DNA of 20,467 nucleotides from a virus, in IMG/VR virus record IMGVR_UViG_3300020190_000437, positions 1-20,467 of that record. One strand, 5' to 3'. How positions within the stretch are numbered: the first letter of the stretch is position 1; each line of letters begins with the position of its first letter. A program made the translations under genes and the position numbers. The notes under the pieces are model-generated. The model had not been told where the DNA came from and did not search any database. It worked only from the letters and a program-made list of their open reading frames with translations. Shown here one piece after another: positions 1,764-19,099 of the stretch.

Positions 1764-1788
1764 TTTTTTATTTTTGTTTTTTTATATT

Positions 1789-3495
1789 TTATACAAATGA
1801 ACCTGATCTCCAAGCTCCGTTCATCCACATATAAAGGAAATATTGGCCTCCTACGGTTGCAGGGACAATTTCTCCATCAGTTCCTGTCCAAGAAGGAGCA
1901 GCTGATTGGGTTGTAGGTAATACAATTGAACCGGACATTCTAACTTTGAAAGCATCTGAACGAGCTAATTGTCCTGTACCATTACCAACAATCATTAATG
2001 AAGTATCATCTCCTTGGGTATTAAATTGGCCTTGGACATGTTGGTATGAGCCTGAGGCTATTGTGCCTAATCCTTCTGCATGAGAATAATCACCTACGGC
2101 TTGGGTACCTGAACCTTCAGCATGAGAGTAATCTCCTACGGCTTGAGTGATCCTACCTTCTGCATGAGAATATGATCCTAAAACACTGTTTTCTTGTCCT
2201 GAGGAAAAGGATCCAGATATAATAACTTTTCTAGAGGAAAAATCACCTCCAATTAATGGGTCACCATAATCATTATTAATGTAAAGTTTATTACTTTGAT
2301 TTACTTGAGAAGAAGGTCCTGCTTTAATTCCTAAATAAACATTTCCAGTAGAGTTTGCAGAAGCATTTCTTCCAGCTAAAAATCCAACAGCTACGTTATC
2401 ATTCCCAGCAGTTAAATGTTCAAAAGTATTATCACCTATTGCTACATTTTGAAAACCTGTAGTATTAGCATTCATAGCATTTGTTCCTACCCCTATATTG
2501 TTAGTTCCTGAGGTAACAGAACTTAAAGAATGATATCCTACTGCTGTGTTTTGGATACCTGTAGATGCATTTTTTAAAGAAGAATGTCCTACTGCAGTGT
2601 TATGTCCACCTGAAGTAAGATTTTCTAATGAATATGATCCTAGAGCAGTATTGTAACTGTTAAGTCCTGAAGGACCTCCAATATAAGATACTAAAGTGTT
2701 AGATCCTATAGCAGTGTTGCCCAATCTATCATCATTAGATGATGCTGAAAAAGATAAATCTCCTACAACTATATTACTTGATCCTGATTTAGGGCCTTGT
2801 CCTACTCTAACTGAATTAAAATATGCATCTCCGTCTGTAGCAATACCATTTGCAGTTGAAGATAAAGTTCCTTGAATAGTTCCACTTCCGTCTAAAAAGT
2901 TTATTGTACCATTTGATACATAAATATCTTTCCATGCGTTTGTAGGTGAACCTAAACTAAATGATGAAGTAGTAGAGGCACCATTTGTAGCTGGTATAAT
3001 TGATCCACTAATTAAAAGTGAACCTGAAAATGTAAGGTTATTTGTTGATGGGTTAAATGTTAAAGTAGTTTTACTATAAACACCTGAAAAATTATCAAAT
3101 ACTCCTGGCCATCCAAGCAAAATTGGGTAATTTCCAGGTGGAAGCCCTGAGGTAGTAGTATATACTGAGTCAGCTTCAGTTGCATTGTTTACATACCCAT
3201 CAACATTTGCACCAGCAACGTATGATGCAGATGTAGTGTTTGTAGGTATTAAAGTTGAAATATCAACATTGAATGTACTTCCATCCCCCTTTTCAAAAGT
3301 TAAATTAGGGTCAGAAAATGAAGCTGTAACTAGTAAAGAACTAGTGTTAACACTTCCACCACCGTTCAAAGCATAAGAAGCGGTTAAAGCATTTGTGATT
3401 GATCCACTAATATTTCCTGTTACGGTTAAACTACCAGATATAACAAGGTTATTTCCTGTAGTTGAGGATATTGTGTTTACATTTAATGTACTCAT
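1789..3495 (-). CDS. Fibre-like protein with YadA-head-type and SHAEG repeats (MSTL paralogue 2)
   Basis: This is a 568-residue fibre-like protein. Its start, MSTLNVNTISSTTGNNLVI, matches the neighbouring paralogues. Residues 1-180 are GSL/TASY-type beta repeats. Residues about 259-375 contain seven NTAxG-like units, mostly 17 residues apart, as in trimeric YadA-type adhesin heads. Residues about 440-495 hold three YSHAEG units plus a degenerate YQHVQG unit, 14 residues apart, as in many phage fibres. The last 35 residues (GEIV…YFLYMW…AWRSGS) match the end of the next upstream paralogue at 3576-5099. The protein most likely forms a trimeric beta-rich fibre. A variant late-promoter motif lies 10 bases before the start. 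Its exact place on the virion cannot be told from sequence. Confidence 0.8.
   Translation of the reverse strand: MSTLNVNTISSTTGNNLVISGSLTVTGNISGSITNALTASYALNGGGSVNTSSLLVTASFSDPNLTFEKGDGSTFNVDISTLIPTNTTSASYVAGANVDGYVNNATEADSVYTTTSGLPPGNYPILLGWPGVFDNFSGVYSKTTLTFNPSTNNLTFSGSLLISGSIIPATNGASTTSSFSLGSPTNAWKDIYVSNGTINFLDGSGTIQGTLSSTANGIATDGDAYFNSVRVGQGPKSGSSNIVVGDLSFSASSNDDRLGNTAIGSNTLVSYIGGPSGLNSYNTALGSYSLENLTSGGHNTAVGHSSLKNASTGIQNTAVGYHSLSSVTSGTNNIGVGTNAMNANTTGFQNVAIGDNTFEHLTAGNDNVAVGFLAGRNASANSTGNVYLGIKAGPSSQVNQSNKLYINNDYGDPLIGGDFSSRKVIISGSFSSGQENSVLGSYSHAEGRITQAVGDYSHAEGSGTQAVGDYSHAEGLGTIASGSYQHVQGQFNTQGDDTSLMIVGNGTGQLARSDAFKVRMSGSIVLPTTQSAAPSWTGTDGEIVPATVGGQYFLYMWMNGAWRSGSFV
2011..2178 (-). repeat. 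Coding tandem repeat, SHAEG units, 42-bp period
   Basis: Three YSHAEG-containing units and one degenerate unit (YQHVQG) sit 14 residues apart (42 bases), residues about 440-495 of the fibre gene. DNA similarity between units is visible as repeated GCATGAGA and CCTACGGCTTG on the plus strand. SHAEG repeats are common in trimeric phage fibres. Confidence 0.85.
2371..2721 (-). repeat. Coding repeat, NTAVG units of YadA-head type, 51-bp period
   Basis: Seven units of the form N-[TVI]-[AG]-[VIL]-G start at residues 260, 282, 299, 316, 333, 350 and 367. All are 17 residues apart except the first step, which is 22. The pattern resembles the left-handed beta-roll repeats of YadA-like trimeric adhesin heads. 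It points to a trimeric beta-roll in the fibre. Confidence 0.8.
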
Positions 3496-3505
3496 TTTTT
3501 TATTT

Positions 3506-3517
3506 TGTTTATAAATA
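3506..3517 (-). promoter_or_regulatory. Variant T4-type late promoter (TATTTATAAACA)
   Basis: On the minus strand the sequence reads TATTTATAAACA, two mismatches from the palindrome found upstream of four other genes. It lies 10 bases before the ATG of the fibre gene at 1789-3495, inside an 80-base AT-rich gap. Assignment as a late promoter is by similarity to the T4 core TATAAATA and by position. Confidence 0.45.
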
Positions 3518-3575
3518 TGAAAAAAAAAATAAAAAACATTTAAACGGTGCCTTAAATTTTAAATTGTATTATGTT

Positions 3576-5099
3576 TTATGCTAAAGAACCTGATCTCCAG
3601 GCATTATTTAAGTATACATAAAAGAAATAGTTGTCGGAATTTACTACAAATACTATTTCACCTTTTTTACCAGTATATTCTGGGGGACCATCTAATACTC
3701 TAGGCAAAGCGAGTCCTCCAGATACTTCAAGAGATCCTGAAATTTTTCCATCTCCTTTAATGTCTACTGAACCTGTAACTTCTGTAGGTCCTGTTACTGT
3801 AACTGAACCAGATGTAGAAGTTGAACCTGTAATTGTAACTGATCCAGTAAATGTTGTATCTCCGTATAATACGTTTCCATCACAACAAAAAGTTGCGGTT
3901 TGGGTTGGAGTTAATGAACCTGAGCCCATTAAAACATCAGCTCCAAATGATTGTAGATTTGGAGTTTGGTTTCCAATATGAATTACGGGCATTGGATTAA
4001 ATGCTGTAAGTGTTGAAGTTGAATACTCGATAATAGTAAGAGTTTGAGTCCAAGTTGAACCTATATGAGTTACAGTTTGAGTAGTTCCTGTTGCTGTATT
4101 AAATAATTGAAGTGTTCCTCCATTTGCAGCTGCAGATGCTGAAATAGGGGTTCTAACATCTCCATAAGAAGGATCTAACCAAGCATAATTAAGGTATGCA
4201 CTAGCAGAAGATTTTGAAAATCTAACTGATCCTTCATATCCATACCATGCTGTTGCTTCGTCTCCAGGACAATACATTTCAATACATCCTGTTACAATTA
4301 ATCCATCATGTAAATTTGTAGGACCATATACATCTAATCCACCGGAAATTGTTACATCACTGTATAATGTAATTTCATCACAGCAAAAAGAAGCAACTGG
4401 GGTTATAGATCCTGTCCCAATTGGGTAAATTGGTATAGCTCCTGAAATAGGGAACGGAAAACCAATTTGAACTATTGTTCCTGTAGCAATATCTGGACCA
4501 GAAGCTGAAATATATGTAACTACACCATCAAAATTGGTTCCTGCATATCCATAGGGGGCATATATTCCAGTAGCAGAATCGTAAATATAACATACGTTGT
4601 TTGAAGCAACAGCTGCTGCAGCAATTCCTACTGTTAAATTTCCATATGTATTAAAGTTAATAGAAACATATTCAAATCCGTTTGGAGCAGGAGTTGTTCT
4701 ACCATCTACGGCCCAAAAAATAGGATTATCTTCATCATTATAACAATTAATATCTAAACACCCACTAATAGTTATATTACCAGTAAAATCAGTATCACCT
4801 AATACTTCAAATGATCCAGTTACTGTTGTAGGTCCTTCAAAATCCACAGAACCTGAGTTTGTAAATGACCCAGTGCATTCAAAAGATCCTGATTTAAGGA
4901 TTAAGTTACCATTATTAATAATTAAGTCACCATCTTTATTAGCAATTGATCCAGTTACATTTAACGATCCACTAAAATCATTAGTAGCACCCCCAAGATC
5001 TATTTCTTTTCCGGTAGCAGATATGATTTTAGTGTCAGCATTGATAATGACTGTAGTTCCTGAGGTAGGTTCGAGGTTATTTACACTTAATGTACTCAT
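3576..5099 (-). CDS. Fibre-like protein with a duplicated cysteine module (MSTL paralogue 1)
   Basis: This is a 507-residue structural-type protein starting MSTLSVNNLEPTSGTTVII. Residues about 43-110 are short beta repeats (SGSLNVTGS, TVTGSFEV). Two modules of about 140-150 residues follow, at residues 109-247 and 267-414. Each opens with G-C-[LI]-[DE]-x-x-C and closes with [SG]-[SL]-TP…[SAT]-x-FCCD-x-x-x-LY-x-D. A second run of short VTGS repeats (about 415-460) leads to a C-terminal segment with GEIV, YFFYVY and AWRSGS, shared with the next gene. No enzyme motif is visible. The gene is 9 bases downstream of the 116-residue fibre-type gene and has an A-rich leader without a Shine-Dalgarno sequence. 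It is likely a virion fibre or appendage, and possibly trimeric. Confidence 0.75.
   Translation of the reverse strand: MSTLSVNNLEPTSGTTVIINADTKIISATGKEIDLGGATNDFSGSLNVTGSIANKDGDLIINNGNLILKSGSFECTGSFTNSGSVDFEGPTTVTGSFEVLGDTDFTGNITISGCLDINCYNDEDNPIFWAVDGRTTPAPNGFEYVSINFNTYGNLTVGIAAAAVASNNVCYIYDSATGIYAPYGYAGTNFDGVVTYISASGPDIATGTIVQIGFPFPISGAIPIYPIGTGSITPVASFCCDEITLYSDVTISGGLDVYGPTNLHDGLIVTGCIEMYCPGDEATAWYGYEGSVRFSKSSASAYLNYAWLDPSYGDVRTPISASAAANGGTLQLFNTATGTTQTVTHIGSTWTQTLTIIEYSTSTLTAFNPMPVIHIGNQTPNLQSFGADVLMGSGSLTPTQTATFCCDGNVLYGDTTFTGSVTITGSTSTSGSVTVTGPTEVTGSVDIKGDGKISGSLEVSGGLALPRVLDGPPEYTGKKGEIVFVVNSDNYFFYVYLNNAWRSGSLA
3858..4775 (-). repeat. Diverged internal duplication with CxxxxC…CC signature
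   Basis: Copy A is encoded at 4359-4775 (residues 109-247) and copy B at 3858-4301 (residues 267-414). Shared features in order are SGCLDINC versus TGCIEMYC, an aromatic W-containing segment, GTGSITP versus GSGSLTP, and SFCCDEITLYSD versus TFCCDGNVLYGD. The interior has diverged strongly, so this is an old protein-level duplication. Confidence 0.7.
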
Positions 5100-8504: not shown

Positions 8505-9536
8505 TTAAATTATTCCAGCCAATTTTTGCATACGTAAGAATGCATCGTTTGACTCTACGATTGGTTTTTTAACGTTTGGTGTAATTGTCGATTTAGAAGC
8601 ACTACCTAAGTTTTCTTTAATTGTATTTTTAGCAACTTTAATTCCCTCGTTTAAAGTTTCAAATACTAATTTTACTTCACCTACAGTAGTAGCTTTGTCA
8701 AACGAACTTAACACTTTTACTTTTTGACTTTCGTTCAAATTTTTAGCTTTGAAGATTTTGTTAGTATAAAGAAGTTTAGCATTTAACAAGTTAATTTCAT
8801 TTAATTCAGCTTTAAGAGATTTAATTGCAGAATAAGCTTCGTCAAGTTCTTTTTTCATTTTTTTCTTGTCTTCGTCTTCTTTTTCTTCTTTTTTCTCTTC
8901 TTTTTTCTTTTTAGCTTCTTCTAATGAATCAACATCTTCCATTTCTTCGATTTCGCGTAGCAATTCAGCTAAATCTACTTCTTCATCTTTCACTTCCATT
9001 CCTTCTTCATCACCCATACCTTCATGACCAGCTTCAAGTTCACCTGATGCGATCATGTCTTTAATAACATCTTCGATGATATCTTTAAGATCTTCATCTG
9101 TCATGTCTTCGAGGTCTAGTGGTTCACCTTCTTCTTCACCTTCTTCAGATTCTTCATCAGATACATCTGTATCGTCTTCGTCATCTCCTTCAGCTTCGTA
9201 AAGATTTTCTCCCATATCATCTTCTTCTAATTCTAGCTCACGTAAAAGCTCTTCCAAATCAATTTCATTCATTGTATCTTCAGTTTCATCTATGTATTCA
9301 GCTTCATCCATTTTATTTATGTCTTTAGCTTCTTTCATTTTTTCATCTTCAGACATACCGTAGTTTTCTTCAAGATCTTCGTCGAGTTCTATTTCTTGAA
9401 GTTTTGCGGCAAACATTGATTTCAATTGAGGTGTGAAGGCTTCTTCTAGAGCAGCTTTTGCATTTGCGATAGCAGTTTCTTTAACAGCTTTAGCATCTGC
9501 GATTGCTTCTTTAAGCAAGTCTCTGTTTGTTGCCAT
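8505..9536 (-). CDS. 22: Prohead core scaffolding protein (gp22-like)
   Basis: This 343-residue protein is highly charged and helical. It has an acidic middle (residues about 90-200, runs of D and E), a lysine-rich stretch (about 205-230) and a coiled-coil-like C-terminal part, ending FLRMQKLAGII, a typical tail of T4-type scaffold proteins. It contains several [L/I]-x-E sites of the kind cut by T4 gp21 (for example GELE-AG and SLEE-AK), as expected for a core that is degraded at maturation. It lies between the protease and capsid genes, the same 21-22-23 order as in T4. A long leader and an upstream terminator separate it from the protease gene, so scaffold and capsid are probably transcribed together and strongly. 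AGGA 5 bases before the ATG is one of the few Shine-Dalgarno-like sequences in the window. Confidence 0.9.
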   Translation of the reverse strand: MATNRDLLKEAIADAKAVKETAIANAKAALEEAFTPQLKSMFAAKLQEIELDEDLEENYGMSEDEKMKEAKDINKMDEAEYIDETEDTMNEIDLEELLRELELEEDDMGENLYEAEGDDEDDTDVSDEESEEGEEEGEPLDLEDMTDEDLKDIIEDVIKDMIASGELEAGHEGMGDEEGMEVKDEEVDLAELLREIEEMEDVDSLEEAKKKKEEKKEEKEDEDKKKMKKELDEAYSAIKSLKAELNEINLLNAKLLYTNKIFKAKNLNESQKVKVLSSFDKATTVGEVKLVFETLNEGIKVAKNTIKENLGSASKSTITPNVKKPIVESNDAFLRMQKLAGII

Positions 9537-9720: not shown

Positions 9721-10353
9721 TTAAAATAACGGACACGTACCTTTTGCACATAAAATTTCAGTAATAATTGAATTAGTACGAGCATACTGGTTAAGATAAG
9801 TAGATCTAGATTCATTTAATGCTCCATTTTTCATCCATGAATCTGGGTTAGATGGATTAGAAACAAGATCCCATGTTAATAGTTCAAAATCGTCTTGTAC
9901 TTCCATTACCTCACCCATTTGTTTTAATGATCCCATCCCACGAGAAGAAACACCAATAATTAAACCATTTCTAACTAATGCTCCAGCAATACGTCCTGAG
10001 GTAGTTCCTAAGTCACCTGGGTCAGAAAATATTTCTACTTTTCCATGGATTTCATCTCCTCTCCACCATACTTCACGAATTGCATGTGATGCATTACGTA
10101 GGTTAATTACTTGAGAATCGGGGTGGTCCAACTCACCTACTGTTTCAGTAGAATGTTGTTTGATTTTGCGTATAAAATTGTCGATTTCGCGTTCCCATAG
10201 TTCTTTTTTATAGTAACGGCCGTTTCCATTTTTAACTTCAACAGTAGCTAATATACCTTCAACGAAAATATTTCCGCCTTTGTTCATTCCCTCAATCAGT
10301 TTTACTGGTTTGGGAACAAAGTGTCTAGTTTCTATTAAAAGTTGCTTGTCCAT
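9721..10353 (-). CDS. 21: Prohead core protease (gp21-like)
   Basis: This 210-residue serine protease is of the T4 gp21 type (herpesvirus-assemblin-like fold). The conserved segments are NGNGRYY (42-48), GELDHP with the probable catalytic His77, the N-x-SH segment around residues 87-90, and GVSSRG (134-139) holding the catalytic Ser, followed by the DFELLTWDLVSNPS region. In T4 it cuts scaffold, internal and capsid proteins after [L/I]-x-E. The start lies 2 bases after the stop of the 763-residue gene, so translation is probably coupled. A strong terminator follows. Its position between the internal-protein gene and the scaffold matches the T4 order. Confidence 0.94.
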   Translation of the reverse strand: MDKQLLIETRHFVPKPVKLIEGMNKGGNIFVEGILATVEVKNGNGRYYKKELWEREIDNFIRKIKQHSTETVGELDHPDSQVINLRNASHAIREVWWRGDEIHGKVEIFSDPGDLGTTSGRIAGALVRNGLIIGVSSRGMGSLKQMGEVMEVQDDFELLTWDLVSNPSNPDSWMKNGALNESRSTYLNQYARTNSIITEILCAKGTCPLF

Positions 10354-10355
10354 AA

Positions 10356-12647
10356 TTAAAAATCCATTCCATTCATTTTTCCTTCTAAATCATCACGTAA
10401 TTGATTTTTCATATCTAAAGGAATGTTGGTGTAAGTGTCTATAATAGAATCAATATCTTGTCCTTCATCATAACGACGTTCAGCATCTTTTTTATATTCC
10501 ATGTATTCAGATGAAGGTTCATCTTCCATTTCATCAATAACTTCTTTATCTTCTTTTTTCTTGCCTTTAAATTTGGACATCATTTTTTCAACTTTTGCTT
10601 TTGCTTGCTCTAGTTTTTTGATGTCTTTTTCAAGTTCTTTAACCTTTTTCTTGTCAGTTAAAGCTTTCATATCCTCATCTTCATCAAGTTTAGTAAGTTT
10701 TGAACGTCTATGGTCAATTAGTGCGTCAATTTTGTCTAATTTAGCTTGTAGAACTTCGTGTTCTGCTTCTTTGTTTATATCAGCTAAATCTTTTTCTACA
10801 CTTTCACGTAAAGATTCTGCATCATATGATTCTTCAAACATTTGAGGTAAAACAACTACCATTCCACCTTCAGGATCTTGATTAAGAACTTCTAAATTAG
10901 CTATAAATTTCTTTAAACTTTCAATGTTAACTGGGCGTCCTCTTCCTATTACACCAGATTCAGCTTTTTGAAGTTTAGCATATTGTTTTGAAAGTTCATT
11001 TTCAACCCAATCTTTTAATTTTAATACTTCAAAATCACTAGGAAATTCAAGAGCTTGATATATAACATCTTTTCCTTTAATAGGATACTTTAATGTATTA
11101 GTACCAATAAACTTTTTAATATATGTTTTAAACTGACTCCAATAAAAATTTGAATCAAGACTTTTTAAAATATTGTTAAGAGGATTTCTATTATCTGAAG
11201 GGTTATCTAGAGCAAGTACAAGATAATTTGAAAATAAAATTGTATTATCAGGTAAAACTTTTATATGAGGAATCATCATAGACTCATTATATGCTGGGGC
11301 GTTTTCTCCAGGATTTAACAAGTTAAGTTTTTTCCTAGCTACAGGAGGTAAAATGTAGTATTTAGGGATAAATAATTTTCCATCACCGTCACCTTTAAGA
11401 TTAATAGTTCCCATAGTAGCGAAACCTCTACCTGCTTCTTCTAATTCAGCATCAACCATTTCACGAATTATTTTGCGTAATTTAGTTTCTTCTAAACTTC
11501 TATCAATATGAAAAGGTCTATATTCTTTTGGAAAACTTGACTTAGATAGTTTTGTAAAATAGGCAACAACTTCTTGTGGAGTATTATATTTTCCTACAAT
11601 AGGTGATCCAACTTTACTTAAATCTCTAACGCGATACATTCCATTTTGTAAGCTTATTTCATATTTGTCGTCATCAACTCTAATAAAATCATAATTAAGT
11701 CCTCTTAGTTCAGCATTTATTCCAGCACTAACTAACATTTTTGTTAAATCTTTTAGTGGGTTTGGTTGAGGATCAAAATAAACAGCTTCGTCAATTTCTT
11801 CATCAATCATTTCACGAATTACTTTGCGTAATTTAGCTTCTTCTAAATGGCTATGTAAACCACTTCCACCTGCAGGGTCAGTATCATCATCATAATTTCT
11901 TTTAATATTATAATATGACATTATTTCATCATATTCTTCTGAAGTCATATCTTTAGGGAGCATTCCTGTCCTTTCATGGTAGTCAAATAACTTAGATGCT
12001 TCATCTGATGTAAGTTTTGGTTGGATAGACTCTTTTAAATCACCATATCCACTTGACTTGTATTTTCCTTTAGCTTCTTTTGGCTCACCTAAACCAGGGT
12101 GTTCAGTTACATATCCTAAATCTTTAATTCCAAATTGACCATCTTTTGTATAATGGATTGGATCTTTTGATAAGTTTTTAAACACGATATCTTTTAATTC
12201 TTGCATCGTTTTATCAGCATTTTTAGGATCTTTCATTTCAGCATAGTAACCCATCATAATTTGATCAAAGATCATGTTATCAGGATTTTTTTCGTCTGAA
12301 TAGTCAAAGTTTTTTTCAAGATCTTTTTCTACAGGTTTAGAAACTTTTTTCTCTTCTGCTTTAACTTTCTCGTCTTCGTTTTCTTTTGCTTTTCTAGCTT
12401 CAGCTAAAAATGCTTCAAATGCAGTTTCATAAGATTCTTTTTTAGGACGATCCATAATTGCAGGCATCACCGAAATTATATTTTCTGAAATGATGTTTTT
12501 AGTTTTAAGTGATGCTACTGCTTCATCAAATGTAGCAGCGTTGCGTACAATGTTTGGAAATTGACGTTTTGCCTCTGTAAGGAAAACACCTTTATGTCCT
12601 TTACCTTCTTTGATTGATAAATACTGATCTTGTAGGGTCTTTTTCAT
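10356..12647 (-). CDS. Large candidate internal head protein with several protease-site motifs
   Basis: This is a 763-residue charged, mostly helical protein that I do not recognise as a family. It occupies the place of T4 genes 67/68, between portal and protease. Candidate gp21-type sites are FLTE-A (E25), FLAE-A (E83; compare FIAEA in T4 internal proteins), LEE-A (E270), EIDE-A (E287) and ELEE-A (E404). Two nearly identical helical units, LRK-[VI]-IREM-[IV]-D-x-E-[IL]-x-EA, lie at residues 273-288 and 390-405, each preceded by LEE-[AT]-K. They separate an acidic N-terminal part, a small alpha/beta-looking domain (289-385), a longer middle region (406-600) and a C-terminal coiled coil (about 610-700). 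The start overlaps the preceding stop by one base (TAATG). I infer a prohead-core polyprotein-like component. A fusion of separate internal proteins is also possible. Confidence 0.7.
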   Translation of the reverse strand: MKKTLQDQYLSIKEGKGHKGVFLTEAKRQFPNIVRNAATFDEAVASLKTKNIISENIISVMPAIMDRPKKESYETAFEAFLAEARKAKENEDEKVKAEEKKVSKPVEKDLEKNFDYSDEKNPDNMIFDQIMMGYYAEMKDPKNADKTMQELKDIVFKNLSKDPIHYTKDGQFGIKDLGYVTEHPGLGEPKEAKGKYKSSGYGDLKESIQPKLTSDEASKLFDYHERTGMLPKDMTSEEYDEIMSYYNIKRNYDDDTDPAGGSGLHSHLEEAKLRKVIREMIDEEIDEAVYFDPQPNPLKDLTKMLVSAGINAELRGLNYDFIRVDDDKYEISLQNGMYRVRDLSKVGSPIVGKYNTPQEVVAYFTKLSKSSFPKEYRPFHIDRSLEETKLRKIIREMVDAELEEAGRGFATMGTINLKGDGDGKLFIPKYYILPPVARKKLNLLNPGENAPAYNESMMIPHIKVLPDNTILFSNYLVLALDNPSDNRNPLNNILKSLDSNFYWSQFKTYIKKFIGTNTLKYPIKGKDVIYQALEFPSDFEVLKLKDWVENELSKQYAKLQKAESGVIGRGRPVNIESLKKFIANLEVLNQDPEGGMVVVLPQMFEESYDAESLRESVEKDLADINKEAEHEVLQAKLDKIDALIDHRRSKLTKLDEDEDMKALTDKKKVKELEKDIKKLEQAKAKVEKMMSKFKGKKKEDKEVIDEMEDEPSSEYMEYKKDAERRYDEGQDIDSIIDTYTNIPLDMKNQLRDDLEGKMNGMDF
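11433..11495 (-). repeat. Direct repeat copy 2 (LRKIIREM unit)
   Basis: These 63 bases encode residues 385-405. They match the copy at 11784-11846 at about 55 of 63 positions, 351 bases (117 codons) apart and in the same frame. The best-conserved part encodes KLRK-x-IREM. Confidence 0.85.
11784..11846 (-). repeat. Direct repeat copy 1 (LRKVIREM unit)
   Basis: These 63 bases encode residues 268-288 and are paired with the copy at 11433-11495. The similarity extends to the N-terminus of the winged-helix protein near 19099 (RLLEIIREEINEA) at the protein level. Confidence 0.85.
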
Positions 12648-13096
12648 TATTTTTCTGATAAAAGTTGTTTTATGTCTTTTAAATAGCTTTTAACTATTTC
12701 GATTGGTTTATTTATATCATATGAACCAGCATTTCCACCATATAGTTCAATTGTTTCATTTTTAGCGTTTGAAACTAGTGGTTGAATCTCGTTCATCAAT
12801 TTTTCTATTTCATCTAATGAAGCTATACGCATTTTTTGAACATCGTTCATTTCGTTTAACACATCATCTTCAAAAAGTTTTTTCTTGTCGTATGACTTTG
12901 GCTTAATATCTGGAGCTAGTTTGAATCCTAGTTTATAGTAAGAAATATTTTTAGCTCCTTTAGCATTTTTATCTTTATTAAATGCTGGTTTAGTAGCTAC
13001 TCCTGTACCTTCCCCAGGAGTAACTGTAGCGCCACCAACATTAGTAGCACTCATTTCTTTGAGTTTTTTACGAATTATTTCTTTAATATTATCCAT
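12647..13096 (-). CDS. Small candidate internal head protein with TNVGGA motif
   Basis: This 149-residue protein is not assigned to a known family. It opens with a basic amphipathic helix, MDNIKEIIRKKLKE, followed at residues 15-23 by MSATNVGGA and a Gly/Pro/Thr-rich segment. The same TNVGGA with a similar Gly pattern follows the predicted cleavage site of the capsid protein. LKE (12-14) fits the [L/I]-x-E rule of the prohead protease. The C-terminal half (about 80-149) is helical. The gene overlaps the preceding stop by 8 bases and touches the next start (TAATG), so it is part of a tightly coupled run from 13946 to 9721. I infer a small prohead core component. Confidence 0.7.
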   Translation of the reverse strand: MDNIKEIIRKKLKEMSATNVGGATVTPGEGTGVATKPAFNKDKNAKGAKNISYYKLGFKLAPDIKPKSYDKKKLFEDDVLNEMNDVQKMRIASLDEIEKLMNEIQPLVSNAKNETIELYGGNAGSYDINKPIEIVKSYLKDIKQLLSEK

Positions 13097-13946
13097 TTAC
13101 AGTTTCTAATTCGTTGATTAAGTCATAGTACTGTAACAAGTCAACTAAATCGTTGTCAGTTATTTTAGCGTTTTTAGCTGGGGGGTTAATAACTGTGATG
13201 ATTTCGTCAATTTTAATTTTAGTGGTTGGGTTTTTTGTTTTCTTATTTAACGTAGCCAATTCACTCTTAATTTCTGTTACCTTATTGGTATAAAATTCCC
13301 TTAAACGAGGTGTATTGTCAATAGAGGTAATATACTCTTTTAATATCGATTTTTGTTTTGGGTGTAATGTATCGTATTTTTCGTTAAAGTTTTCTAATAC
13401 CATTTTGTAAGCTAACAAACGTACATCTTTATCAGCTTTTTCAAATTCAGACATTACTTCATCACGAACTTTACCTTCAGTAATTTTAGCTGCAGTTAAA
13501 TGCTCTAAAATAGTTACTTTATTGTTGATAGTTTGTTCGGGATCTACTGCTTCTGGGGTGTTAGTAATTTCTAGCAATGTATAGAAAGCAGCATATATTT
13601 TATAATTAGGGAGCTTGTGGTTAAAAAACTCGTTGATGTTGTAGTGTTTCTGAATTTCACTGATCAAATTATATTTTTGACGTTTAATAGCTCCTCTATT
13701 CAATGCTTTAGATGAGTCAATTAATGTGCTAACTACAACATTAGCTCTCCCTTCAGTTAAGGACGTCTTTTTTAATAAAGTTTCATACAACTTATACTCA
13801 CGACCTAATTCCGACTTAACGAAATATTTTTTAAGTATATCTTTTGCTAGTGAATCCTTACCATCTAATGTATCAGTAGTGATTTGGCGAACTAAAAGTT
13901 CAAAAAGGATACCAGTATTTTTATACTTTGAATGTTTGATTTGCAT
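13089..13946 (-). CDS. Helical protein of the head module, function unknown
   Basis: This 285-residue protein starts MQIKHSKYKNTGILFELLVR. It is soluble, strongly helical and Lys/Glu-rich, with no signal peptide, membrane span or known catalytic motif. It lies directly after the portal gene and before the small TNVGGA protein, which it overlaps by 8 bases, and it has its own exact late-promoter palindrome 13 bases upstream of the ATG. The head-assembly role (core, neck or portal accessory) rests on position alone. Proteins with this kind of N-terminus appear, as far as I recall, in other marine T4-related phages as hypothetical proteins; I cannot confirm that here. Confidence 0.75.
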   Translation of the reverse strand: MQIKHSKYKNTGILFELLVRQITTDTLDGKDSLAKDILKKYFVKSELGREYKLYETLLKKTSLTEGRANVVVSTLIDSSKALNRGAIKRQKYNLISEIQKHYNINEFFNHKLPNYKIYAAFYTLLEITNTPEAVDPEQTINNKVTILEHLTAAKITEGKVRDEVMSEFEKADKDVRLLAYKMVLENFNEKYDTLHPKQKSILKEYITSIDNTPRLREFYTNKVTEIKSELATLNKKTKNPTTKIKIDEIITVINPPAKNAKITDNDLVDLLQYYDLINELETVNG

Positions 13947-13959
13947 TCTAATATTATTT

Positions 13960-13971
13960 TATTTATAAATA
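13960..13971 (-). promoter_or_regulatory. T4-type late promoter, exact palindrome
   Basis: The exact TATTTATAAATA lies 13 bases before the ATG at 13946 and 12 bases after the stop of the portal frame. It is the only exact copy inside the head module and would start a transcript from the 285-residue gene through the protease gene to the terminator at 9673-9698. Confidence 0.6.
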
Positions 13972-13983
13972 TGTGGAATTTTT

Positions 13984-15561
13984 TTACTCTCGTATTTGTG
14001 ATTCATCTAATAGCGAGTTTCCTCTAATATCTGATTCGAAGATTATTTGTTTGCTTTGGTTTTTTATATCGTTAAACATTCTAGCATTACGATTTCTTTT
14101 ATTTTTAGTTTCAAGTGCTAATGGACTTCCACCTTTATATTGAGGTTTGATTGAATCTGATTCATCTCCATCCTTTTTAACACCATCAGTACCAATTCTA
14201 TCTTTTCCAAATGCATTGTCTTGAGTATTTTTATCAGTTACTTTTTCAGAAGGACGACCTAAATCTTTTTCTTCATCATATCCAACAGGTACGCTGTTAT
14301 CTTCATATCTTCCTCTACCATATAAAGAAGCTAAATCATGCGGCGTACCATATGATTTACCAGTTTCAAGTGGGTCATTTCCTTCATTTTCAATTTGAGC
14401 AAGACGGAATTTACGTTTAGCATCTTGGATAATTAAGTCTCTATATTCGTCATATTGATCTTCACTTAAGTGGAATAAATTTTCATAAATCCAATCAGTA
14501 GGAAGAATTTTGTTTTCCATCATTTGGTTAGCTAAATCAACTTTTTCTCTCATTAAAGCTACTCTTTCTTGATCGTAGATAATTGATGGAGTAGTTAATG
14601 ATAGCTCAAAGTTTGTCATACTTTCATCACGGTATTCTTGAGTGTATAAGTGAACTAAAGCAATTTTAGTCAATTCAGATACTACAATGCGCTGGATGCG
14701 TTCAATTGTACGTGCAAAACGAATATCTTCAGCAGCTAACGTAGCTTTACCTGTTAAATCTTTTTCATACCCCATAAACGCTTTAGGAACCTTAAGGGCA
14801 GCAAATAATTTATCTCTTAGGTAAGTAACGTCTTCAATACCTTGCCATTGTAAACCTGCTAAATTATCAATTTTGGTTGAAGCATCATTACCTCTTATCG
14901 GAATATAAAAATCTTCAAGTAGGTTTTGCATATTATACTTTAAGTTATAATCACCTGTTTGTTGATCAATATATGGAGTGCGTTTCATTTTAGAGATTGT
15001 TTTCTGCATAAAGTTTTCCACTTCAGCAGGTGCAATATTTCCAACATTGATATAGAATATACGTTTTTCAGGCGCACGAACAATACGATGGATTAACATC
15101 GCATCTTCCATCATAGTGTATTGTTTAAACAATTTACGAGCAGGCTCTAAATACGATCTACCATAAGGTAAAAAGTTAGTATCCGTTAATAAACGGAAAT
15201 GAGCCATTTCATAATTGTCAAAGAAAATAGCATTTGCTTGATTCCCGGCATTTGGTACATTATAGTAACCATAATTTGAAGGAGATGAAATACCGTCAGG
15301 ATCAAATCTAAAACGTACTGAATTTGGGTGTTCTTTATCATATCCATCTTGTCTTTCAATATGGAATGCATTATAAGGAATTACGTTATATACACCGAAT
15401 TTTTCAGCAATTTCTAGTTTTAAGAAAAAATCACCATATTTCAACATATTACGAATCCAAGGCCATATCGTAAAACAAATTGTATAGAATTTTTTGTACG
15501 TCTTCATCCGAACTACGAATTTGTAATACTTCACCCATATCATTGCGTAAAGTACTTTCAT
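13984..15561 (-). CDS. 20: Portal protein (gp20-like), C-terminal part after a frameshift
   Basis: This frame encodes most of a T4-type portal vertex protein. Portal-like sequence begins near IWPWIRNMLKYGDFFLK (residues 32-48 of the open frame, from about 15468); the preceding 31 residues are the other frame's DNA read out of frame. Key segments are RIFYINVGN (about 157-165, the region targeted by classic cyanophage g20 primers), DFYIPIRGND and YLRDKLFAALKVP. The N-terminal 131 or so residues lie in the previous frame (15449-15859). Together they would give a portal of about 625 residues, in the expected size range for large T4-type portals. The portal forms the ring through which DNA enters and leaves the head. 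If translated separately, the start would be uncertain: ATGs lie at 15561, 15507 and 15447. Confidence 0.9.
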   Translation of the reverse strand: MKVLYAMIWVKYYKFVVRMKTYKKFYTICFTIWPWIRNMLKYGDFFLKLEIAEKFGVYNVIPYNAFHIERQDGYDKEHPNSVRFRFDPDGISSPSNYGYYNVPNAGNQANAIFFDNYEMAHFRLLTDTNFLPYGRSYLEPARKLFKQYTMMEDAMLIHRIVRAPEKRIFYINVGNIAPAEVENFMQKTISKMKRTPYIDQQTGDYNLKYNMQNLLEDFYIPIRGNDASTKIDNLAGLQWQGIEDVTYLRDKLFAALKVPKAFMGYEKDLTGKATLAAEDIRFARTIERIQRIVVSELTKIALVHLYTQEYRDESMTNFELSLTTPSIIYDQERVALMREKVDLANQMMENKILPTDWIYENLFHLSEDQYDEYRDLIIQDAKRKFRLAQIENEGNDPLETGKSYGTPHDLASLYGRGRYEDNSVPVGYDEEKDLGRPSEKVTDKNTQDNAFGKDRIGTDGVKKDGDESDSIKPQYKGGSPLALETKNKRNRNARMFNDIKNQSKQIIFESDIRGNSLLDESQIRE

Positions 15562-15859
15562 CGGATATAATATCTAAAGCAGAGGCAATAATAGCATCTG
15601 TATCCATTGAATCATATTCAGAATAAAGCGTAGGGCGTAAAGTTTGATAGTTGAAACTACTTTGGTATCCATAAATTGATGTATGTGAGTTAGTATAAAT
15701 TCGGTTAAATCGGTCTACAAGTGCATTTGTTTCATATTCACCTGAAACTTGTATTTTATTAGTATCGAATACTTTTAGTTGGTTATCTCCATCGTTTTGG
15801 ATGATAACGTCTGTTGAAAATAATCGTCTTAATCTACTAAATAATCCTGTATCTGCCAT
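15449..15859 (-). CDS. 20: Portal protein (gp20-like), N-terminal part, frame ends early
   Basis: This is a 136-residue frame with typical portal N-terminal sequence: MADTGLFSRLRRLF, then TLYSEYDSMDTDAIIASALD (about 77-96), DIISDEST and a VLQIRSSDEDVQKILYNLFYD segment. It stops at 15449, while the homologous sequence continues in the next frame from about 15468. Restoring one frame requires skipping one base, or inserting two (mod 3) bases, near 15461-15475. Between NLFYD and IWPWIRN a few residues of the usual portal sequence seem to be missing, which favours a short deletion over a simple slip. It lies 8 bases after the terminase stop, behind TATAAAATAAAAC. Confidence 0.85.
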   Translation of the reverse strand: MADTGLFSRLRRLFSTDVIIQNDGDNQLKVFDTNKIQVSGEYETNALVDRFNRIYTNSHTSIYGYQSSFNYQTLRPTLYSEYDSMDTDAIIASALDIISDESTLRNDMGEVLQIRSSDEDVQKILYNLFYDMALDS

Positions 15860-15867
15860 GTTTTATT

Positions 15868-17469
15868 TTATAAAAGCCAAGAAATATCTTCTTGACCATT
15901 TGAGTAAGGGTTGTCTATTTTAAATGGGTTATTGTTATACTTATCAGCATAATTTGGCCCATTGGAATAACCTCCAGCATATGATGTACGAGAATTTCCT
16001 ATACTATTCAACATACTTTTAGTCATTTCCATACTATTTGTTCTAAGTTTAAAAGCGGTTTCACGTAAATAACACCCAATAGAAAATGCCATAATCAAGT
16101 CGTCATTGTATCCTCCTTGAGCTTCTGCTCTACCGTTTCTCCATATAAATACTTTCATTTCCTCTAATAGGCGCACAGAATGGAAAACAACTGCTTTATC
16201 TATAATAGCTTCTTGAAATTTACCAATTGCTATTGGACGAGTTGTATTTGACATGGTAAAACCAGGTGTCATTTTACTGTGATCCATATAAGGATCAAAG
16301 AAATTATCTACATTGTTTGTTCCACCTTTTGGTGAATAATAAAAGTTTTGATAACCTCTATCTAAAATCGTTTGTACTGTTGACCATCCTACACTTTGAT
16401 TTTCGACTGCAAGTAAAGCATTGTTATATTCCGTTGCAATGCTAGTTAACAAGTGTCCATAATCCTTTGTATTGATTTGACCCTTATATTCACCTACCTG
16501 AGTGAATGTTTCAACATCAAAGATGTGAAACCCTGAAAAATCCTTACCATCACCACGTGCTACATCAGCTACGATCAAATAGTTCCTAGAATAGTCGGCT
16601 GGTTCCCAAATCCATAGGTTTTGGTCAACTCCACGTTTTTCAAGAGGTTCTTTCACGTGAAATTGTTCGTAAAAAGTAATATCTTCTGGTGTAAATACAG
16701 TGTCACCAGATGTTGTAAAGTCACAGTCACATTCTTGTGCTGCCATTCGGATACCTAAATCAGCATCTTGTTGATCTCTCCATGATTGATCTCGTTCAGG
16801 ATGTACTTGCCAAGGTAATCTAATAGGTAAAAAACTATTATCACCCATTTCTGCAGCAACCCATGTTTTATGGAACCAGTTACCTGTACCATAAGGTGTA
16901 GATAATGCAATACAACCTCCACCAGTAGCTAAGGTTTGTTGAGCTGAGGCCCATATCTCACCAATATTGTGAATGAAGGCAGCCTCATCTATAATCAACA
17001 AAGAAACGGCTTCTGATCGACCTGCATCACTTGAGGCACCTATTGCTTTGATTTGAGATCCATTTGGTAATCGAAGTGTTAATTTGTTTGCTTCGTCAGG
17101 TTTGTTTGCAAATTTAAGCCACGAAGGTAAACTTTCGTACATAAATCTAACTTTGGTAACCATGTTTTTAGCGGTTTCCTGTTTAGTTGCAATACATAAT
17201 ACGTTTTTATCTTCATGAAATAACATTAACCACAATGAGTAACCTGCGGATAATGTTGAAATACCTAACTGGCGGGATTTAAGTACTATTGAATATGGAT
17301 TCTCTTGGAATAAAGTAAGTACTTTTTCTTGGAATGGATAAAGGTTAAATTGAATTCGTCCACGTTGTGGATGTTGGATGTAACAGTATTTTTTCATAAA
17401 ATACGCTGGTGATTGGGCGCATTTTATATATTCCTCTCGGACTACCTGTTTTAAACTTTTTTCTTCCAT
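15868..17469 (-). CDS. 17: Terminase large subunit (gp17-like): ATPase and nuclease
   Basis: This 533-residue packaging motor has both domains complete. The ATPase has a variant Walker A SRQLGIST (65-72), Walker B LLIIDEAAF (157-165, Asp161-Glu162) and a motif III STP (190-192). The RNase H-like nuclease shows LIVADVARGDGKDFSG (Asp302), LLAVENQ (Glu356) and GYNDDLIM (Asp456/Asp457), matching the three acidic positions of T4 gp17. It pumps DNA into the prohead through the portal, cuts concatemers, and directly precedes the portal gene here. The start overlaps the upstream stop (TAATG), which supports it and indicates coupling. The usual P-loop Lys before the Ser/Thr is Ile; several phage terminases have such a variant P-loop. 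Confidence 0.95.
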   Translation of the reverse strand: MEEKSLKQVVREEYIKCAQSPAYFMKKYCYIQHPQRGRIQFNLYPFQEKVLTLFQENPYSIVLKSRQLGISTLSAGYSLWLMLFHEDKNVLCIATKQETAKNMVTKVRFMYESLPSWLKFANKPDEANKLTLRLPNGSQIKAIGASSDAGRSEAVSLLIIDEAAFIHNIGEIWASAQQTLATGGGCIALSTPYGTGNWFHKTWVAAEMGDNSFLPIRLPWQVHPERDQSWRDQQDADLGIRMAAQECDCDFTTSGDTVFTPEDITFYEQFHVKEPLEKRGVDQNLWIWEPADYSRNYLIVADVARGDGKDFSGFHIFDVETFTQVGEYKGQINTKDYGHLLTSIATEYNNALLAVENQSVGWSTVQTILDRGYQNFYYSPKGGTNNVDNFFDPYMDHSKMTPGFTMSNTTRPIAIGKFQEAIIDKAVVFHSVRLLEEMKVFIWRNGRAEAQGGYNDDLIMAFSIGCYLRETAFKLRTNSMEMTKSMLNSIGNSRTSYAGGYSNGPNYADKYNNNPFKIDNPYSNGQEDISWLL

Positions 17470-17897
17470 TATTTAACTACTATAAAGGTAACAATAGTAA
17501 GTAAGGAAGCCACGAATCCTCCGCCTAACCACTTAAGTCCTGATTTAAGATTGGTGTTTTTACGGGTTAAATCATTAACGTCTTTTTCAAGTCCAGTGAT
17601 TATTTTATCTTTTTTTTCAATCGTTTTTTCATAATCAGCTATCTGTTTTTGATGTGATTTTTCTTTTTCAGTATATAAAACGATGATACTATCTTGAGAA
17701 TCAATTTTTTCGTTAAGTTGATAAACTAATTTATTTGCTATTTTAAGTTCAGCCATAGCCGAATCACCTCTAACTAAGTCAATAGCAATACGTCTTGCTT
17801 TATCGTATGAAAAACAAATTCTACTTGTATCTTTTTGAGAAAAAGTCGTTGAGTTCAGTAGGAGAAGAACTAGTAAGATCTTTAATTTTCTTATCAT
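17469..17897 (-). CDS. Candidate spanin subunit with signal peptide and C-terminal membrane span
   Basis: This 142-residue protein has four visible parts. They are a positively charged N-terminus with hydrophobic core (MIRKLKILLVLLLLN, a signal peptide probably cut near S20), a Cys at residue 28 in RICFSYDKARR, a long coiled coil (about 45-118), and a C-terminal hydrophobic segment, LGGGFVASLLTIVTFIVV (124-141). No clear lipobox is seen. The gene starts 77 bases inside the end of the preceding membrane coiled-coil gene, in another frame. This layout resembles Rz/Rz1 spanin pairs, which disrupt the outer membrane at lysis. A single protein with signal peptide and C-terminal span also resembles a u-spanin. 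A protein of unknown envelope function is the alternative. Confidence 0.55.
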   Translation of the reverse strand: MIRKLKILLVLLLLNSTTFSQKDTSRICFSYDKARRIAIDLVRGDSAMAELKIANKLVYQLNEKIDSQDSIIVLYTEKEKSHQKQIADYEKTIEKKDKIITGLEKDVNDLTRKNTNLKSGLKWLGGGFVASLLTIVTFIVVK

Positions 17898-18183
17898 AAT
17901 ACAAACGTGTTTTAATTAATTCTTTTTCCGTAATTTTAATTTCATTATTTAATGAATCTATAACTTTAGTTTGTTTAATTATTTGATAGTTTAAAGTATC
18001 ATTTAATTTTTTGTATTTGTTAATTTCAATTCTTAAGCTATCTATCTCCCTTTTTTCTTTGTCATATGTGTTTATTTGGGTAGGTTTAACTTTTACATAA
18101 ATTAAAAATAACAACAATAGTAAAAGTATCCCACCTATAATTAGATGGGATAACTTTAATTGGAATGTTTTATCTTTTATCAT
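17821..18183 (-). CDS. Candidate inner-membrane spanin (Rz-like coiled-coil protein)
   Basis: This is a 120-residue protein with a basic N-terminus, one membrane span (about 11-30, LSHLIIGGILLLLL) and then a periplasmic-type coiled coil (about 40-100) ending ELNDFFSKRYK. That is the N-in, C-out build of Rz-type inner-membrane spanins. I chose the ATG at 18183, one base after the upstream stop; an upstream in-frame ATG at 18198 would add MQVYK and overlap the previous gene by 14 bases. Its 3' end overlaps the next gene by 77 bases. No holin or endolysin is seen nearby, so the lysis role is an inference from topology and overlap. Confidence 0.55.
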   Translation of the reverse strand: MIKDKTFQLKLSHLIIGGILLLLLLFLIYVKVKPTQINTYDKEKREIDSLRIEINKYKKLNDTLNYQIIKQTKVIDSLNNEIKITEKELIKTRLYYDKKIKDLTSSSPTELNDFFSKRYK

Positions 18184-18184
18184 C

Positions 18185-19099
18185 TTATAAACCTGCAACT
18201 GCTCTTAAAGCATCTACTTGAACAGCATTAAACTTATATTTTTCTTTAGCAGAGTTAATAATTTGAATAGCTAATTTTTTATCTTCAGCACTTAATTCAC
18301 CTTTAGCTTTTTTAACTTTATTCATTAATCCTGTACGGATACGATCAAAGTTTTCATCTTTACTTGCTGGGGATGCTTGAGCTAATTCTTTTGCGGTTTT
18401 ATCACCTTTAATTTCTGCAGATGAAGGACCTTCTTCACTAGGTGATGTAAATTCATCTTCATCTTTATAGTAGGTGTCTTCTACTTCTTCGTCTGAATAT
18501 GATACATCATCAAATCCATCATTTCCTGGTGTGCGAGTAGCTGTTTTGGTTCCTGGTTTTCTGCCTCGTTGCCCTGTTGAAGGTGCTTTTTCTGGTTTAT
18601 CTGGATTGGAAGGTCTTCCTTGGGGTTTATCTGTTACTTTTTTCTTGGTTACTCCAGTTACAGATTCACCTTTATCTAGGATACCATAATCAATTAAATA
18701 ATTAATTAATGGGTTAACCTTTTGTTGAATAATGCCTAACTCATTAGCAATATCTCTTTGACGAATGGGTTTATTTTCTTTTTTATCTCTTTGGATAATA
18801 TCTATTATTTTATAAAGTAATTTTTTTCCTTCTTTAGTTGAATCTTTAATTTCATCTTTTAATTTTGCTAATTTTTCTGGGTTAGAAAGAACAATATTAT
18901 ATGCCATTTCATCTAATTGTTCTTCTTCAAGTTCCTCTTCAGCTAATTTTTTATATTTAGATAAAATTTCAGGTTCAGGCATTCCTGAAACGTTGATTTG
19001 GGGTTCAAATCCTTTTTTTTCGTCTGCAGGATTTTTTAATCTATAAAAGGCTTCGTTAATTTCTTCACGTATAATTTCAAGTAAACGAGATTTTTTCAT
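18185..19099 (-). CDS. Winged-helix, AT-hook-like DNA-binding protein with capsid-targeting-like N-terminus
   Basis: This 304-residue protein has not been assigned to a family. Residues 1-18 (MKKSRLLEIIREEINEAF) match the IIRE-x-I-x-EA helix found in the 763-residue head protein and end in INE-A, a possible gp21 site. Residues about 92-143 look like a winged helix (KIIDIIQRD, IRQRDIANELGI, VNPLINYLIDYGIL). GRP (161-163) and RGRKP (178-182) in a Pro/Lys/Thr-rich linker resemble AT hooks. An acidic stretch (about 193-225) and a short C-terminal helical domain follow. It sits two genes before the large terminase, so a small-terminase role is possible; a DNA-binding protein packed in the head is the other reading. 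An exact late palindrome lies 9 bases upstream. Confidence 0.7.
   Translation of the reverse strand: MKKSRLLEIIREEINEAFYRLKNPADEKKGFEPQINVSGMPEPEILSKYKKLAEEELEEEQLDEMAYNIVLSNPEKLAKLKDEIKDSTKEGKKLLYKIIDIIQRDKKENKPIRQRDIANELGIIQQKVNPLINYLIDYGILDKGESVTGVTKKKVTDKPQGRPSNPDKPEKAPSTGQRGRKPGTKTATRTPGNDGFDDVSYSDEEVEDTYYKDEDEFTSPSEEGPSSAEIKGDKTAKELAQASPASKDENFDRIRTGLMNKVKKAKGELSAEDKKLAIQIINSAKEKYKFNAVQVDALRAVAGL

Follow-up and report, generated by a model that had tools for sequence, protein, structure and literature searches.

In bacteriophage T4, the internal proteins (IPs) Ip1-3, which have only an N-terminal leader in common, are injected and inhibit type IV restriction enzymes (PubMed Central (PMC) article PMC12373910); in the leader of IPIII, targeting depends chiefly on residues 4 and 7, processing on residues 8 and 10 (PMC9026906). 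The head proteins of the giant phage SPN3US carry long N-terminal propeptides; its prohead protease, which cuts at AxE (PMC5694885), cuts some of them at several places, and at 13 of 14 sites the cut takes off an N-terminal propeptide (PMC10052503). In phage P1, a short N-terminal signal directs the defence-related protein DarB into the head (PMC9024508). Here we describe a virus contig of 20,467 bases (IMG/VR record IMGVR_UViG_3300020190_000437, positions 1 to 20,467; 'the window' throughout) from a T4-like phage, one of a group of uncultured T4-like phages. Its terminase shares 56.5% identity with the enzyme of the nearest cultured relative, Flavobacterium phage immuto, and 51.2% with the enzyme of Microcystis phage Mel-JY01. 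The window encodes a 763-residue protein in which conserved ends enclose a string of domains that differs between relatives, joined at predicted [LI]xE protease sites. We put at roughly two in three the probability that this protein and a 304-residue protein of the same window are prohead-core precursors, cut by a protease of the T4 gp21 type into internal proteins.

The first point to note is the anatomy of the 763-residue protein. Its parts are as follows, a slash marking a predicted cut here and below.

10356 to 12647, minus strand: whole gene of the 763-residue putative modular prohead-core precursor, so named from its position, its site excess and the domain strings of its family
12030 to 12647, minus strand: conserved N-terminal part (residues 1–206, LxE at 14, 25, 83 and 206), from 30 aligned sequences
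11787 to 11846, minus strand: module 1 (residues 268–287), LEE/AKLRKVIREMIDEEIDE/, recognised by sequence
11487 to 11786, minus strand: domain F (residues 288–387), its profile found in 5 of 56 family members, folded at 297–367 in the whole-protein model
11436 to 11495, minus strand: module 2 (residues 385–404), LEE/TKLRKIIREMVDAELEE/, recognised by sequence and as an island of similar DNA
10803 to 11435, minus strand: domain C (residues 405–615), ending LRE/S, from the model and a profile found in 7 of 56 members
10359 to 10802, minus strand: conserved acidic C-terminal part (residues 616–763), with helices in the model

Domain F and module 2 overlap by three residues, LEE, which end the former and begin the latter. 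The original prediction had started from a recurrent helix in this window, and its four claimed copies are all present in the sequence. Two are the modules of the 763-residue protein, LEEAKLRKVIREMIDEEIDE/A and LEETKLRKIIREMVDAELEE/A, which have 14 of 20 residues in common; the third, MKKSRLLEIIREEINE/A, forms residues 1–16 of the 304-residue protein, and the fourth, MDNIKEIIRKKLKE/M, residues 1–14 of a 149-residue protein (13055-13096). The claim that the unit is usually followed by alanine is borne out by three of the four copies; in the 149-residue protein methionine comes next. At the joints of the 763-residue family we find the 20-residue module LRKVIREMIDAELEE/A, a helical unit with the pattern LEE/xKLRKVIREMIDAELEE/A, together with [LI]xE sites. 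Our main point beyond the earlier observation is that, as judged from the sequences, the units in the 763- and 304-residue proteins are joints between exchangeable domains.

A search of viral contigs gave 84 stretches encoding relatives of the 763-residue protein, and 80 loci were kept. Complete, non-identical homologous open reading frames (ORFs) of more than 340 residues numbered 57, of which the 56 other than the immuto homologue were used, the window's allele (100% identical in loci L001 and L002, and included as L002) among them. Throughout these 56 members residues 1–206 and the C-terminal helical part are conserved and the middle is variable: 14 domain profiles and the module combine into 31 different strings, two of which (with 2 and 3 members) are without any domain match. 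Some profiles are related, C, D, Q and B aligning together, as do A, E and P. Among pairs whose N-terminal parts are at least 93% identical, the domain string differs in 43 of 53. L002 and L011, for example, have N-terminal parts 98.1% identical and strings M*F*C and IK*A, with no middle-domain profile in common.

Domain edges coincide with sites in 59 of 70 cases upstream (19.5 expected) and 59 of 70 downstream (26.5 expected), counts that are partly circular because the domain seeds were picked between sites. For this reason we also located break points in protein similarity without reference to the motif, merging nearly equal ones (3,011 to 979) from 55 related proteins, so that individual cases are not independent. 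Of these 979, 46% fall within 6 residues of [LIM]xE, as against 25% by chance (standard deviation 1.3%), and 32% lie near the strict form [LI]xE[AGSTM], as against 15% by chance. The same is seen in the DNA of seven pairs chosen from among the near-identical ones: all seven lose homology no more than 5 residues from a site, five of them at the boundary of the conserved N-terminal part, and the homologous stretch that extends into the C-terminal part begins between 10 residues before and 2 residues after the L.E/S site. For L002/L011 and L007/L034, only the module, 59–63 base pairs (bp) long, stays alike between the break points, at 81–95% identity; module 2 of the window is such an island, 60 bp long, 90% identical to its counterpart in L011 and flanked by different neighbours.

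The 763-residue protein contains 12 [LI]xE[AGSTM] sites where 2.7 are expected, and the window's three tail-fibre-like proteins show no excess of this motif. At the C-terminal site (615) the 30 aligned sequences have L in 30/30, followed by R, K, M, N or Q, E in 30/30, and then S, G or N. Sites 83 and 206 resemble it, with near-invariant P3 and P1 and several residues at P2; at site 404, P3 can be L, I, M or F, P2 is again varied, and 28 of 30 sequences have E at P1. Free variation at P2 fits a protease site without proving one. An AlphaFold2 model of the whole protein has a mean predicted local distance difference test score (pLDDT) of 67.8, and 10 of the 12 sites lie in ten-residue blocks with a mean of 53 or below. 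The mean at the sites is 51, compared with 68 at random positions (P 0.002) and 63 at other glutamates (P 0.008); most sites are thus predicted to lie in disordered linkers. Between them, domains F and C (the latter at 430–600) are folded in the model. Modelled alone, domain C reaches a mean pLDDT of 82.1, with 14 of the 18 ten-residue blocks between residues 21 and 200 scoring above 85. Seven of the exchanged profiles are basic (+4.1 to +6.8), and the C-terminal part is acidic, with a mean net charge of −12 over the last 150 residues of the 56 members.

The setting of the gene resembles that of a T4-type core gene. On the minus strand the order is the 304-residue winged-helix protein, proteins of 125 and 142 residues, terminase, portal, proteins of 285 and 149 residues, the 763-residue protein, an S77 prohead protease, a gp22-like scaffold and the capsid protein. 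From the portal gene onwards this parallels T4 20-67-68-21-22-23, the 763-residue gene sitting between the portal and S77 protease genes, where T4 has core genes 67 and 68. The protein is thus encoded between portal and protease/scaffold genes and carries several predicted [LI]xE sites, as T4-type prohead core proteins do. The two genes that follow it are these.

9721 to 10353, minus strand: S77 prohead protease of the T4 gp21 type, the presumed cutting enzyme, assigned from PF03420 and phrog_207
8505 to 9536, minus strand: gp22-like, LxE-rich putative scaffold, named from its position before the capsid gene and its site excess

By sequence the first product belongs with the S77 prohead proteases (PF03420, expectation value (E) 3.9e-28, 98.7 bits against a cut-off of 27; phrog_207, E 1.4e-48). 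Its segments GELDHP and GVSSRGMGS correspond to GELNHP and GVSSRGLGS of T4 gp21, and we take these conserved His and Ser segments to hold the catalytic residues. The gp22-like protein has 10 [LI]xE[AGSTM] sites against 2.9 expected (T4 gp22 has 9 against 1.7) and no Pfam or PHROG family match better than E 0.07; the capsid protein was named because it resembles the one annotated in immuto. At its C-terminus the gp22-like protein reads FLRMQKLAGII, and several genes of relatives begin with a similar RMQ.LAGI string that runs up to xE (for example MNKETLRMQMLAGIITE/S), perhaps another common leader.

The 304-residue winged-helix family appears to be a second modular precursor.

18185 to 19099, minus strand: 304-residue winged-helix protein, second putative modular precursor, from 28 members with an exchanged inner domain
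19052 to 19099, minus strand: its N-terminal unit, MKKSRLLEIIREEINE/A, with LxE at residues 14–27 in 28 of 28 members
18620 to 18907, minus strand: its exchangeable winged-helix-like domain, directly after QLDE/, placed by the [LIM]xE before the domain start

All 28 members begin with MKK[ST]RLLEI[IV]REEI...LxE/, with small variations. A variable spacer follows in most, then [LIM]xE, the inner domain and a mostly common C-terminal part. By reading, without comparison of the kinds with each other, there are at least eight kinds of inner domain, that of the window being the winged helix, and 28 of 28 begin directly after [LIM]xE, their starts being set by eye. In L025 and L034 a PDFGG domain follows the N-terminal unit directly, and elsewhere it follows an internal LNE/; the end of the unit therefore seems equivalent to the internal joints. 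The suggestion of the original prediction that DNA-binding cargo might be delivered to the host has some basis in this family, namely an HTH_Crp_2 match of the 304-residue protein at E 0.0022, below the Pfam cut-off, and AT-hook-like GRP/RGRK stretches, similar RGRK/KGRP-like ones being present in 21 of 28 members.

Several observations weigh against reading these proteins as precursors of internal proteins. Bare [LI]xE is in no clear excess in the 763-residue protein (16 against 11.2, p 0.088). Site 14 has an invariant P2, Asp replaces Glu at site 25 in 5 of 30 sequences, and both sites lie within well-predicted regions. As a control, 26 conserved glutamates of the family were considered, 7 of which have a conserved [LIM] at P3; the residue preceding the other 19 also varies (one to six kinds), so that a free P2 is not distinctive. 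Because of the bare-motif and free-P2 controls we have slightly lowered our confidence that the two proteins are precursors. Flanking sites are weak for profile Q (3 of 5 upstream, 0 of 5 downstream), profile P (1 of 3 on each side) and profile G (4 of 9 upstream), and profiles F, G, H and M are acidic. P1' in the 304-residue family is often M or I. At T4 sites, A, G or S is common at this position. By reading rather than profile search, Mel-JY01 has only a 178-residue protein in the place of the 763-residue one, and immuto a 360-residue protein seemingly without the middle domains. Mel-JY01 also has a 388-residue gene between protease and scaffold (L085:22429-23595), the end of which resembles an ADP-ribosyltransferase by eye only (VYRAVSP, STTL, ESEIILP) and may parallel T4 Alt.

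Homology searches for a known fold or function of domain C and profiles A/E/P yielded none. The model of domain C gave no match in the PDB or BFVD at E 0.001 or below, its best VIA-align score was Z 6.8 over 55 residues, a level common by chance, and a sequence search of the PDB gave E 1.6 at best. None of 19 members of profiles A/E/P matched Pfam at E 0.05, and their best PDB match had E 0.58; against the PDB, the whole-protein profile found nothing at E 1 and the whole model nothing at E 0.001. The 763-residue protein itself had no match among 50,697 phage records at E 1e-5 and none in Pfam or PHROG better than E 0.013, no profile comparison aimed at gp67 or gp68 having been made. Since no fold was recognised for C and no Pfam match for A/E/P, it is from exchange and charge that we infer a cargo role for the domains, and this too tells against the reading.

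The original prediction took the helix to be a reusable peptide that marks cargo for packaging. The motif search in relatives' genes that it set as a check bears out the recurrence: the helix is commoner than in shuffled, reversed and internal controls. With a 15-column profile built from 18 seed copies and applied to six relative contigs, immuto and Mel-JY01 (1,370 genes, called by a simple longest-ORF script, so that some starts may be wrong), 34 genes, the seeds among them, exceed the best score (17.0) of 2,740 shuffled or reversed controls. A nine-column profile matches at start residue 6 in 73 of 2,171 non-identical proteins, where 0.43 are expected from the internal rate of the first nine columns (87 in 439,298 positions). 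Clustered by body, 124 N-terminal matches form 19 families, many of the matches being orthologues. The clade is not alone in having such helix starts: in the 484-kb phage record LR756508 (L136:9515-25534), a similar helix was recognised by eye at the beginning of 7 of the 20 ORFs that surround the portal gene. The peptide is indeed reused on different bodies, it ends at conserved sites located at the joints of domains, and the gene of an S77 protease lies nearby; the helix alone, however, is not a reliable capsid address.

The rival explanation that fares best bears on this last point. It holds that the helix at gene starts serves these phages generally, as an N-terminal element for folding, expression or assembly with no link to the head, and that LxE follows from its helical, L- and E-rich composition. 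The terminase (15868-17469) opens with the helix pattern MEEKSLKQVVREEYIKC, yet LxE at residues 14–27 is present in 0 of 37 sequences of its family. The helix also opens a family of proteins of about 111 residues in a baseplate-like neighbourhood (identified by matching size and order to the baseplate genes beside a similar immuto protein), and of the 19 helix-bearing families 10 carry LxE, where local shuffling predicts 7.9 (P 0.20). Leader-bearing genes are moreover scattered along contigs G001 and G002. The excess of LxE with P1 at residues 8–22, seen in G001 to G006 with p 0.0026, 0.00069, 0.21, 0.038, 4.7e-8 and 0.0038 (below 0.05 in five of the six clade contigs), recurs in T4 with p 0.017 (immuto 0.058, Mel-JY01 0.096), so that it is not peculiar to the clade. 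Such an element would not account so readily for the position of the sites: counted by family, [LI]xE peaks at P1 10 (17.5 families) and 12 (14.2) against 4.6 ± 1.8 at 35–79, and a fixed site with P1 at 8–21 is kept in 30 of 150 multi-member families against 12, 11 and 12 in control windows. Nor would it explain why the PDFGG domain can follow either the N-terminal unit or an internal LNE/. We consider a general element possible, with the odds somewhat against it. The helix as a sufficient head address was rejected as unproven, given the terminase N-terminus, the baseplate-like protein and the shuffle test; as a head address on single genes it is plausible, at somewhat less than even odds, if unproven.

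Other genes also have such starts, among them that of the 149-residue protein.

12647 to 13096, minus strand: 149-residue protein starting MDNIKEIIRKKLKE/M, with LxE at residues 14–27 in 25 of 25 members

In several relatives a small gene with a helix start lies a few genes upstream of the 304-residue gene. Its product has 116, 114, 93, 89, 92, 94, 158, 91 or 227 residues, and the bodies belong to at least three families. Other genes of relatives open with MIKLIDILKE/, MISLVQLLKE/ and similar starts; examples of these short T4-like leaders (MIKL.DIL.E/ and MISLVQLLKE/) are at L016:422-958, L107:8407-9443 and L098:15435-16190. A short-leader pattern, drawn after examples had been seen and overlapping the helix families, and therefore descriptive, occurs in 21 of 297 families, where shuffled sequences give 0.9 (4 at most). 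In T4 it finds six proteins, including IPII, IPIII and gp24 and also the homing-endonuclease genes mobB and I-TevIII. The bodies include weakly kinase-like ones (phrog_18305, E 0.0012 and 0.0091) and a Zeta_toxin-type P-loop protein (E 3.1e-12), others being of no known kind; in a scan of ten leader-bearing proteins the remaining ones had no Pfam match better than E 0.003. The short-leader genes may be regarded as candidates for injected proteins.

A second explanation, which we judge unlikely, sees the modules as linkers with a structural role, or as helices for assembly, in a long scaffold whose middle domains set head size or shape and are all removed, with no cargo kept; the LxE sites would then only aid degradation, as in T4 gp22. 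The gp22-like scaffold is likewise full of LxE, and the model shows long helices at the C-terminus of the 763-residue protein. However, LxE is scarce within the domains (22 against 87 expected, with the caveat that domains were picked between sites), which would be odd if they were shredded, and the basic charge of the main domains, the well-folded prediction for domain C and the difference in domains between phages with near-identical N-terminal parts all count against this view. A third possibility is that the modules matter mainly as DNA, as short repeats at which recombination spreads domains, and have no role of their own in the protein. This would fit the islands with different neighbours in two of seven pairs but is improbable: at four sites P3 and P1 are conserved despite variation at P2, and LxE is also present at joints that lack the helix (L.E/S before the C-terminal part, LNE/ in the 304-residue family), so that selection seems to act on the protein.

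Two further features of the window may be recorded. The portal gene (13984-15859) is broken into two overlapping frames, probably by a sequencing error or in a damaged copy, as L001 and L002 have a single frame of 632 residues. At 156-5099, the three tail-fibre-like proteins (535, 568 and 507 residues) are adjacent and have a common start, MSTL.VN.[IL]..T.G.

The precursor reading places the window close to T4 in several respects. T4 IPII and IPIII start MKTYQEFIAE/A, which resembles MIKLIDILKE/ on relatives' genes, and IPI-III and Alt likewise have an N-terminal leader ending [LI]xE and a gp21-type protease, such a leader being present in all the 304- and 149-residue members. The T4 internal proteins also have differing and exchanged bodies and are basic cargo, which the exchanged, mostly basic domains of the window would match. 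Unlike them, the exchanged domains of the window mostly lie inside longer precursors, between conserved ends, and the unit is helical and 20 residues long, with targeting and cutting predicted from sequence. With T4 gp67, gp68 and gp22 the 763-residue protein has in common a place near the portal and protease or capsid gene, several LxE sites and an acidic part, but gp67 (80 residues) and gp68 (141 residues) are too short for such a string of domains. SPN3US offers long precursors with prohead-protease cuts; it differs in cutting at AxE and, in the available parts of the papers, no exchange of inner domains is described. DarB of phage P1 is one 250-kDa protein rather than a set of swapped domains. 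In open-licence PMC literature, no title or opening of an abstract told of a phage core precursor with exchangeable domains, nor was any account found of such exchange at modules with protease sites; the system would otherwise work like the T4 internal-protein route.

If the 763-residue protein is such a precursor, its conserved ends would anchor it in the prohead core, with the small folded, mostly basic domains between them exchanged among phages by recombination. The joints carry [LI]xE sites, often as the helical module; after assembly of the shell the gp21-type protease would cut after Glu, freeing the domains to be retained in the head as internal proteins among the DNA. They might then be injected as the T4 IPs are, perhaps to act against host defences. 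The near-identical DNA of the modules is probably a recombination joint that keeps exchanges in frame and at cut sites. In its fullest form, to which we give slightly less than an even chance, this would make the head scaffold an interchangeable magazine of injected proteins: the 60-bp module would serve both as recombination joint and as protease-cut linker, any domain inserted in frame would be packaged, freed and injected, the 304-residue family would be a second magazine, and N-terminal leaders would feed the same route.

Were this so, the joints of precursors would mark domain borders, and injected phage proteins could be found by sequence alone in uncultured phages. The predicted virion N-termini and the candidate anti-defence domains offer direct tests. 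It would also suggest how new injected proteins are gained without loss of packaging, and phages could differ from one another in the proteins that they load into their heads and perhaps deliver to the bacterium.

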